Shown here one piece after another: positions 4,028 to 13,288 of a stretch of DNA of 64,000 nt (its first letter is position 1; each line of letters begins with the position of its first letter). Origin of the DNA: Scytonema tolypothrichoides VB-61278 (lineage in GTDB: Bacteria > Cyanobacteriota > Cyanobacteriia > Cyanobacteriales > Nostocaceae); contig NZ_JXCA02000022.1 in assembly GCF_000828085.3 (NCBI RefSeq), positions 277,254 to 341,253 on the forward strand, in the 5' to 3' direction. The translations under genes were made by a program, and so were the position numbers. The notes below the pieces were generated by a model, which saw only the letters and a list, made by a program, of their open reading frames with translations, did not search any database and had not been told where the DNA came from.

Positions 4028-4169
4028 TTGCGTCACGGGGATTCCAATGAATTTACCCGAAGCCGCGCATCTTGACCGTATGCCCTACGGCTGCAAGTCC
4101 GCGTATTGCGACTATTTGAGCGGCTACAACGTCTCTATCGGTTGTATAGCCGCAATGTGAACAAACATG

Positions 4170-4220
4170 AGGAGCCACTGCGTTGCGGGGGTTCCCCCCG
4201 TTGAAGCAAGTGGCGTTACG
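4170..4220 (-). repeat. 51-nt palindromic repeat inserted in tnpB zinc finger
   Basis: Removing 51 nt restores an ordinary TnpB zinc-ribbon spacing (ELSE followed by HVCSHCGY). The insert includes GCGGGGGTTCCCCCCG, a near-perfect palindrome, and GGAGCCACTGCGTTG, a unit resembling the one at 14766-14780. It adds 17 codons without changing frame. Confidence 0.7.
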
Positions 4221-4590
4221 CTCTGACAATTCTTTTTTACCTGTCTCGGTTCCGCAGTTTGGGCAAATCTGACTTGTTTTTCGTGCATCTACTTTCTGAA
4301 AATAGACATCGCGTTTGAAACAAGTTTGTTCAAGAATGTTGAAGAACTGACCAAATCCGGCATCTAGGCAATGTTTACTTAACATTCCACGAGATAACGC
4401 GACAAGGTTTAAATCTTCAACAAATACCATTCCCGCATCGTTACAGATTTGATGAGACAGCTTTCTATGAAAGTCTTTACGACTGTTGGCAACGTACTCA
4501 TGCAATAAAGCAACTTTCTTTTGTGCTTTGTGCCAATTATTCGAGCCAATACGTTTTCTGGAAACGCGCTGTTGCAGCAATTTAAGCTTG

Positions 4591-4622
4591 CGTATGTCCC
4601 AAGGGGACACGCTTCGCGAACG
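4591..4622 (-). repeat. Short palindromic repeat causing the tnpB frameshift
   Basis: On the minus strand this reads GCGAAGCGTGTCCCCTTGGG followed by ACATACG. The core GTCCCCTTGGGAC recurs at about 7132-7144 and 42826-42838. It sits exactly where TnpB similarity jumps frame, between VKRPRFFVD and KLKLLQQR. Confidence 0.72.
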
Positions 4623-5310
4623 GCATCCACAAAAAACCTCGGACGCTTGACGACTAGACTGTTAAAAGTTGCAATAAAACTTGTTAGTCCTACATCAATC
4701 CCCACTGCTTCACCGTGTGGCATTGGCTGAGGTGTACTGACATTCCATTGAACCGTTAACATCACATACCAGCCAGAAATACGCTTAACCACACGCGCTT
4801 GCTTCACTGTTCCACCATTTGGAATATCCCGCGATTGACGCATCTTAACTGCACCAATAACAGGTAATTTCACAAACCCGTTAGCCAACGGGTTTACGCC
4901 TAATTGAGGAAAAGAAAAAGAACGCATTCGTCCTAACTTTCTAAATCTTGGGAACCCATGATTTTGTTCCCACATACTTACAAAAGCTTTTTCAAGCCTT
5001 CTCAATGTTTGCTGCAAAGATTGAGCATTAACACGCTTTAAATACTCATTCTCTTTGCGTGCAGCCGTTAAAGACTTGCATTGACTAGCGAACGTTGGGC
5101 GAGGTGCATCAGCAGGTATGATATAGCAGTTACGGAGACTGCAAGCGTTAACCTGACAAAAACGGGATTTGTACCAGTTTTTACGTTCTGCTAAAGCATG
5201 GTTGTAAACTCGTCTATGAGTTTCTAGCCATTGTTCAAACAATGCTATTTGGTTTTGTGTTGGCTTTAGTTTGAATTCGTAAGTCAGATTAAACACTTGC
5301 ATCACCTCCT

Positions 5311-5420
5311 GACGCATTGTCCCCTAGAAAATGGGCAGGCTTGGTTTTGTTGATTTGTGTTGGCGTCACGAGTATTCGTTGTATTAAGCCTGCCCATTTT
5401 CTTCGTGTAAGACCCCGTGA
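5311..5420 (-). mobile_element. Large left-end hairpin, copy 1
   Basis: Arms 5328-5342 and 5386-5400 (AAAATGGGCAGGCTT and its exact complement) close a loop containing an inner ACGA-GTAT-TCGT hairpin. Outer flanks are GACGCATTGTCCCC and CGTGTAAGACCCCGTGA. It lies immediately upstream of the tnpB ribosome site, so the leader RNA of tnpB would carry it. A second copy at 12991-13096 keeps the flanks and loop but has different, still fully paired arms. Interpretation as the IS left end is inference. Confidence 0.7.
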
Positions 5421-7047: not shown

Positions 7048-7385
7048 TCACGGGGTCTTACACGTAAAAAATTAGGCCAGGCTTATTACGATCTCTGGTA
7101 ATACCCACAGATAGCGTCCCTTGCGCGTGTCCCCTTGGGACTCAGCGTGGCGTTAGCCATAGCCTGCACCGACTTTGGGGGGACAATCCGTCAACAACGT
7201 TAGCTTCTTACCCGTTACCTTATGAGTAAGCGCGCGCATGAGTCCTTGTTTCCCTCACTTGGCGACTGGCGTTTCCGTTGGGTAATTAGGCACTGCAGTT
7301 TTTACAGGTGAAATCAAGGGGCTTGCTAGCATAATCAGCAAAACCCTCGTGCCGTGGAAGCCCCTGGCTTTAGACATGGGGGTAA
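7048..7385 (+). mobile_element. Mini-IS of IS200/IS605 type, no transposase
   Basis: 7048-7192 is a decayed copy of the large left-end hairpin in plus orientation: it begins TCACGGGGTCTTACACG and ends GGGGACAATCCGTC, and its middle is replaced by a repeat carrying GTCCCCTTGGGAC (7132-7144). At 7354-7385 a right-end hairpin (AGCCCCTGGCTTTAGACATGG) lies in the matching orientation. The 160 bp between them encode nothing recognisable. This is best read as an internally deleted, non-autonomous element, mobilisable only by a TnpA elsewhere. Confidence 0.6.
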
Positions 7386-12485: not shown

Positions 12486-12927
12486 GTCTTCTCCAGAAGA
12501 TTCATGTAAAACTCATCATCTGTTTTGAGAAAATAAACGAGGCACTCCGTAAGCGGTTAAGTAGCGCTTACATTAGACTGGCTCGTGTCTCAACTCTACT
12601 AAGTTGATTATCTTTACTCACCCAATGAGCTTTAAGGAAAGAATATCTTTAGCTCACGGAGTGAGAATACACTTCCTAATTATAGGCAAAACGGATAAAA
12701 ATGATAGCGAATAAATTATAAGCACTTAATATACTTAAGAATGATTTAATGTGATACCCTTGAATGTACATATCTGCATGGCAGTTTGTGATACAAAGTT
12801 CACCAAAATGTTTGGTGAGTATAGGTTATAAGCGTATGGGTGTAGGTAGCAAAGTGTTACAATTGTGAGCCTCTTATTTTTACTGTTGGTATAAAAATCA
12901 GAAACTTTTTAGCTTCTTCGCCGTAAG
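12486..12927. other. Intergenic with small inverted repeats
   Basis: Contains CACTCCGT near 12546 and ACGGAGTG near 12656 as a distant inverted pair, and a hairpin CACCAAA-ATG-TTTGGTG at 12801-12817. The right side should contain nothing coding; a 69-codon frame overlapping the IS end is rejected. Confidence 0.35.
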
Positions 12928-13096
12928 CCCCGCGCTATAACAGTACTCCGTACCGCTGTGGATATAAGGCGGGGAATGACGAAAGTATCCGACGCATTGT
13001 CCCCTAAAAATCAGCCAGCCTTTGTTTTGTTGATCTGTGTTCCAAGACGAGTATTCGTTGTAGTAAGGCTGGCTGATTTTTTCGTGTAAGACCCCC
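12928..13096 (-). mobile_element. Mini-IS: right-end hairpin plus large left-end hairpin, copy 2
   Basis: 12991-13096 repeats the flanks (GACGCATTGTCCCC, CGTGTAAGACCCC) and loop of the 5311-5420 hairpin, but its arms (13006-13022 and 13065-13081) are a different, perfectly paired 17-bp sequence built on AATCAGCCAGCCTT. Next to it, 12928-12974 forms a CCCCGC/GCGGGG hairpin in the place expected for the right end. No transposase lies between, so this is a minimal non-autonomous element of under 200 bp. Confidence 0.62.
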
Positions 13097-13120
13097 GCCC
13101 CGACCAATGCTGTGCGCCGC

Positions 13121-13288
13121 TCAGCGAGGAAGCGGGGTGCTTGAGGAATTCCCTATCTCCGCGCTTGGTAACGAGTCAATGAAGTCCTCTAATATTTGAG
13201 TCATTGTTTTATCTTTAATAGCTGAGTGTTCTCGCAGCTTATTCAATCTGCGCTCACTAATCCGTATTTGCAAACATTTATTTTTCAT
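13121..13288 (-). CDS. Small ribbon-helix-helix-like protein next to tnpB
   Basis: 55 residues from MKNKCLQIRISERRLNKLRE (an upstream ATG at 13312 would add eight residues; neither has a clear ribosome site). A short basic beta strand followed by two helices, with TMTQILEDFIDSL, resembles CopG/Arc-type DNA-binding proteins often found beside tnpB in cyanobacteria. It is divergent from the tnpB at 13348, about 60 bp away, so it may regulate the shared promoter. Function not proven. Confidence 0.6.
   Translation of the reverse strand: MKNKCLQIRISERRLNKLREHSAIKDKTMTQILEDFIDSLPSAEIGNSSSTPLPR

Follow-up and report, generated by a model that had tools for sequence, protein, structure and literature searches.

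The window, a stretch of 64,000 nucleotides from Scytonema tolypothrichoides VB-61278, contains three copies of a short repeat with a long hairpin at its center. Copy 1 (5313-5417, plus strand) is 105 nt long and comprises an outer left end, CGCATTGTCCCCT, two paired arms enclosing a loop in orientation A, and an outer right end, TCGTGTAAGACCCCG, the whole being bracketed by TGA at 5310-5312 and again at 5418-5420. Copy 2 (12991-13097, plus strand) is delimited by GACGCATTGTCCCCT and TCGTGTAAGACCCCCG, has 17-bp arms and an orientation-A loop, and is flanked by CC on the left (12989-12990) and on the right (13098-13099). Copy 3 (7051-7190) is located on the minus strand, with TGA, in minus-strand reading, adjacent to its right end (7048-7050) and its left end (7191-7193); the outer ends of the family are present with one mismatch in the left end, and the interior is longer and altered. 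Copies 1 and 2 have flanks and loop in common, with 84% identity over 51 nt and 86% over 49 nt, and both fold better than each of 200 dinucleotide shuffles (z -4.3 for copy 1, z -3.4 for copy 2), while the fold of copy 3 is no better than that of shuffles (z 0.10). The stem of copy 1 is formed by 17 Watson-Crick pairs and one G-U pair, and that of copy 2 by 17 pairs; the arm sequences of the two copies are unlike, and pairing is kept in both. The original prediction placed two copies with common flanks and loop at these positions and a decayed third at 7048-7192, all of which are real, with boundaries refined to those given above. It also assigned perfect stems of 15 and 17 bp, of which the latter stands and the former is slightly too short.

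The hairpin constitutes an insertion separate from its surroundings, because uninterrupted sites exist in relatives. The copy 1 locus is empty in the genus relative L408, which is 98% identical over 270 nt and reads CACCTCC-TGA-CTACATT with a single TGA, as compared to CACCTCC-TGA-element-TGA-CTACATT in the window; the more distant L411 and L410 (80% and 83%) are likewise uninterrupted at this point, with a single TGA in L411 and a single TAA in L410. Copy 2 splits a stretch that is unbroken in L394, L395, L396 and L407, with CC on either side. Further pairs of filled and uninterrupted sites, among the matches listed, are L035/L022, L053/L002, L067/L121, L097/L008, L027/L086 and L007/L043, the triplet being TCA in the last of these; L043 itself carries TGA at one side and TAA at the other. 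In comparison to uninterrupted relatives among the matches listed, the duplication in L044, L101 and L002 fits CC, CGCC or a single T, and a clean triplet is absent from L086 and L068.

For a broader view, 160 distinct copies in which the two ends can both be recognised were gathered, merged by interior and 8-nt flanks, in a collection where one genome may occur twice, including as a named record. The same TNA is found on both sides in 53 of the 160 (37 TGA, 14 TCA and 2 TAA); in the other 107 such a pair is absent, 29 having the triplet on the left side only, 49 another xGAC on the left and 29 other flanks. In an earlier copy set, TGA/TGA (27) and TCA/TCA (12) were compared to the mixed combinations TGA/TCA (1) and TCA/TGA (0), and 9 of the 14 TCA copies of that set start with the left end CATTTG. 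The target consensus is weak, with G two bases ahead of the triplet at 30 and C directly behind it at 33 of 52 sites. A second mode, GACGC...CCCCCG with CC at both sides, as in copy 2, falls outside the 3-bp rule. Neighbouring copies share TGA or TCA somewhat more often than shuffles, in 43 of 56 cases versus 34.6 (p 0.02), a lineage effect that a plain transposase would not be expected to leave. Inheritance of the flank type along with the element was set aside as weak, the p value of 0.02 for TGA/TCA becoming 0.19 once CC is included. Taken together, the element is dispersed and enters its sites as a discrete unit, in many cases duplicating 3 bp of the target.

Two coincidences of position were also noted. 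L040 and L044 carry an internally identical hairpin at the same point (position 1486) of two otherwise diverged sequences, reflecting either repeated targeting or gene conversion, and in the related sequences L043 and L097 two unlike hairpins, whose loops face opposite ways, occupy one and the same point.

The family follows one layout, in which a loop of about 40-46 nt is enclosed by two arms, the arms by two outer ends, and the whole by the two copies of a target duplication (usually 3 bp). The outer ends are conserved and 12-15 nt long, the left end being unlike the right one; in the genus they do not form inverted repeats, and the perfect inverted arms, mostly paired over 17-18 bp, begin 12-15 nt inside the ends. 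The window's own genome yields 43 blast matches, some of them pieces of a single copy, and all seven genus genomes have matches, with 174 exact occurrences of the 12-base left end CGCATTGTCCCC distributed over every one of them and none of the reversed pattern. In a collection of 84,980 species, from which the window's own genome is possibly absent, the exact two-end pattern retrieved 60 stretches, all titled Brasilonema, Scytonema or Nostocales HT-58-2. Three plasmid records, of Scytonema and Brasilonema, hold a family element; the exact pattern was not found in viral contigs, and phages gave no blastn match.

Several structural variants occur. L020-L022 and L024 possess a variant outer left end, CATTGGGACAAAG or similar instead of CATTGTCCCC, and additional small repeats, many of them palindromic, lie within the arms or beside the stem top of L016, L027, L053, L066, L101 and L131. 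At about position 1500 of L153 and L200, on the minus strand, the two outer ends stand alone, the hairpin being gone and TGA/TAA still adjacent. We considered this hairpin-less form as ancestral and rejected the idea, as it has just one exact match in seven genomes (L153/L200); deletion is likelier.

Relatives with other outer ends were detected beyond the genus. A covariance-model search gave hits in 14 of the 388 genomes examined in the order, own genome counted, several of them with different outer ends. The stem-top pattern CCAGCCTT-38 to 48-AAGGCTGG is present in 22 of the 388 genomes and copy-rich in a few (18, 8, 7, 5 and 5 copies), as compared to single hits in each of three genomes for the reversed control; lone stem-top hits without a long stem likely represent chance. 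The CAGCCTT/AAGGCTG stem top is common to elements of other cyanobacterial genera that have other ends, and the long-stemmed relatives share one plan, with a stem of 15-19 bp (mostly 17-18) and a loop of 40-46 nt. In 30 relatives, selected by motif such that elements with Scytonema ends were left out, and required by the test design to start with GG or GA at both ends, a matching 3-mer is found at the expected boundaries in 23, versus 1199 of 5816 mismatched pairs (21%). The 3-mer is TAA or TTA in 17 of the 23 and otherwise CTA, CAA, TTG or GAT, and the outer ends are of equal length on both sides, 12-14 nt, in 22 of the 23. The exception, L289 (GAT), has unusual distances, and its triplet may match by chance. 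These 3-mers, combined with the constant spacing, fix the element boundaries independently of the window's family. Targets are TGA or TCA in the genus and mostly TAA or TTA in the relatives, CAA and TTG being among the exceptions. Elements of two relatives were sought in plasmids, and none was found.

The arms covary across the family far beyond chance. In 99 unique intact copies (interior 77-83 nt, from 127), pairing between own arms averages 16.7 bp versus 6.0 bp when arms are swapped among copies, and at least 15 bp are reached by 92 of 99 own and 104 of 2970 swapped combinations. The 92 own combinations include 59 distinct arm sequences, three or four pair types occur at 13 of the 15 arm positions examined, and in an alignment of 32 copies both sides have changed at 14 of the 17 consensus pairs. 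The long hairpin with covarying arms recognized in the original prediction is thereby confirmed at the level of the family. That such compensatory change demonstrates selection for structure does not follow, because template switching can yield the same pattern without selection.

The loop varies in orientation. Among 89 intact copies, unique and with a known orientation, drawn from the 160, it is in orientation A relative to the outer ends in 48 and in orientation B in 41, and both orientations are seen with 11 of 52 arm sequences. Nearest neighbours do not share orientation above the level of shuffles, whether ranked by loop (p 0.24) or by arm (p 0.22). Some near-identical loops sit on quite different, perfect arms: in 22 copy pairs whose loops agree to 93% or more, the arms are identical in six and at most 83% alike in ten, these ten involving only nine copies and hence not representing ten independent cases, and the orientation is opposite in 12. 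Distances between the two loop halves correlate with a rho of 0.55, as compared to 0.19 for arm and loop, which is weak but above all 500 shuffles, -0.09 for outer end and arm, and -0.05 for outer end and loop, the outer-end comparisons being weakened by the shortness and small variation of these ends. Loop, arms and outer ends are thus largely uncoupled between copies.

The hairpin had initially been taken to mark the left ends of IS200/IS605-type elements. In support, 12 of 65 copies have a tnpB match at a distance of at most 500 nt (8 being upstream of it, 3 inside it and 1 downstream), versus 179 of 3000 random positions (6%) drawn from the same copy-holding stretches, which derive from the exact-pattern search and extend up to 8 kb. 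The enrichment beside tnpB is real, yet there is as a rule no identity with IS200/IS605 ends: no tnpB match is found within 500 nt of the other 53 of the 65, as judged by tblastn with the two TnpB proteins of the window, which distant TnpBs may escape. Copies away from IS200/IS605 ends had been named beforehand as an observation that would speak against the assignment, and together with the uninterrupted sites they remove it as a general reading. IS200/IS605 insertion is not known to produce a target duplication, and here duplications are found at uninterrupted sites. What the element has in common with IS200/IS605 left-end hairpins and palindrome-associated elements is a hairpin beside tnpB in some copies; it differs through its target duplication, its longer stem and the position of most examined copies away from tnpB.

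Two features of the window touch on this neighbourhood. The tnpB beside copy 1 (4053-5317) consists of two overlapping reading frames, and copy 2 splits a non-coding stretch (12900-13200) upstream of a tnpB, parts of which recur in all seven genus genomes and which looks like structured-RNA DNA of the IS200/IS605 type, though situated upstream of its tnpB. Furthermore, 13 of the 160 copies occur at two recurrent flank motifs, eight with TTTCATCC before and five with CCC(C/T)GACC after the element, both of which we infer to belong to IS200/IS605 non-coding RNA.

The flank motifs, the enrichment beside tnpB with its predominantly upstream positions, and the covarying arms are compatible with a structured RNA of tnpB elements, i.e. 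a leader, an insulator or an omegaRNA-like part, whose fold would be under selection. We regard such an RNA as highly improbable, as 53 of the 65 copies have no tnpB match nearby, the copy 1 locus occurs without the hairpin, and loop orientation is independent of loop or arm type, so that transcripts would therefore differ. Rfam returned nothing for the window at gathering scores, and for L001, L006 and L007 two weak matches to microRNA models, both outside the hairpin. The more specific proposal of RNA control of the tnpB beside copy 1 is unlikely, because that tnpB is split and most examined copies are located elsewhere. Movement of a single-stranded hairpin by a Y1 (HUH) transposase, as for IS200/IS605 and REP elements, with TNA as the cleavage site and the guide inside the element, would agree with the maintenance of a perfect hairpin, with outer ends that are alike as direct and not inverted repeats (CATTGTCCCC and GTAAGACCCC), with a flank type that to some degree tracks the subgroup, and with the eight Y1 genes of the own genome. 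However, the target is duplicated at uninterrupted sites, the flank pairs are as varied as TGA, TCA, TAA, TTA, CTA, CAA and TTG, and a motif search 1.5 kb to each side of the eight Y1 loci revealed a hairpin on both sides of none, the nearest case being L118 with copy L024 about 0.7 kb away, so that a Y1 or RAYT partner was rejected and this route appears quite unlikely. REP/BIME sequences, which are moved by RAYT, resemble the element as dispersed palindromes, in cyanobacteria as well (PMC3733652), but measure 20-40 nt as compared to about 105 nt, and the element differs further in its target duplications and in the lack of a flanked Y1 gene in its own genome. Finally, the SDR elements of Nostoc punctiforme, reportedly described by Elhai and others in 2008, are said to be small, folded, nested and subject to compensatory changes, with a length of 21-27 nt, and an RNA-mediated origin of the kind proposed for them would account for the small size, the conserved fold with compensatory changes and the nesting. 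The element is far longer than these SDRs, it is a discrete two-ended insertion, and in relatives matching 3-mers flank constantly spaced boundaries, leaving little room for such an origin.

Based on these comparisons, the hairpin is probably a gene-less, MITE-like mobile DNA element, about 105 nt in length, and not the terminus of a larger IS200/IS605 element. MITEs are generally short, with inverted ends and flanking direct repeats (PMC10969869). In agreement with this class, the element is below 500 bp, lacks coding capacity, is present in many dispersed copies and has target-site duplications, those of the minority class being CC only. Cyanobacterial counterparts are Nezha, a MITE of Anabaena and Nostoc (PMC10969869, PMC3733652), and the type II MITEs of Anabaena sp. 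90 (PMC3542288), which like the present element are short, gene-less, dispersed and hairpin-folding; the latter are described as lacking an evident parent IS (PMC3542288), as so far holds for the hairpin element. Differences from these MITEs as they are described are that the outer 12-15 nt are not inverted in the genus, that the arms are very variable yet paired, that the loop flips, and that loops, arms and ends are mostly uncoupled. A published account of the family or of its arm and loop shuffling was not found in the mainly open-access literature, which is weak evidence of novelty.

The sites read, in the own genome and in another 40 stretches from the genus, revealed neither an autonomous partner sharing the ends of the element nor a long element bounded by both ends, and they represent part of the candidates. 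In the own genome, the left motif with at most one mismatch has 55 sites, of which 30 were taken as loci and 12 read, and the right motif with at most two mismatches has 57 sites (30 loci, 8 read). From the 174 exact left-motif sites of the genus, 40 that belong to the other genomes were inspected, each across at most 3 kb and five of them also for their reading frames; in five genomes, 7 of 30 loci with the arm motif of the relatives were read.

We propose that this MITE-like, non-autonomous element of about 105 nt is moved through its ends by a cut-and-paste type transposase acting in trans, which perhaps also uses the CAGCCTT/AAGGCTG inverted pair at the stem top, the portion of the element that is conserved in other genera. 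During replication, template switching at the hairpin would then copy one arm onto the other and sometimes invert the spacer, so that arm covariation and loop flipping may mainly arise in this manner. Template switching between inverted repeats is known to homogenise arms and invert spacers (PMC8604942) and can keep hairpins with compensatory changes (PMC8794818); the likeness lies in arm homogenisation and spacer inversion, and these reports concern yeast coding DNA and RNA genes and not the evolution of a mobile-element family (PMC8604942, PMC8794818). Template switching alone is insufficient, because near-identical loops carry different arms, and exchange between copies is needed, through which loops may be swapped. 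Selection of foldable DNA at transposition may contribute, and an RNA function would not be required; template switching with exchange between copies accounts for the data no less well than selection acting on an RNA. Alternatively, stem top and loop could form an exchangeable module, with folded hairpins or cruciforms cut and rejoined through the stem near the invariant CAGCCTT/AAGGCTG by the transposase of the element or another enzyme, such that loops would move and flip with both arms staying perfectly paired. We consider this unlikely; if true, folded strands would be the substrate of a recombination system whose chemistry differs from that of integron attC and of IS200/IS605.

In conclusion, the probable MITE-like element described here eliminates a misleading link to IS200/IS605 ends and to the regulation of TnpB, and provides a dense natural record of hairpin arms changing together, with more than 100 copies in few species. 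The element also serves as a warning that a mobile palindrome in DNA can give rise to covariation, which is usually taken to prove a functional RNA. The family allows a direct test of template switching versus selection versus hairpin exchange.
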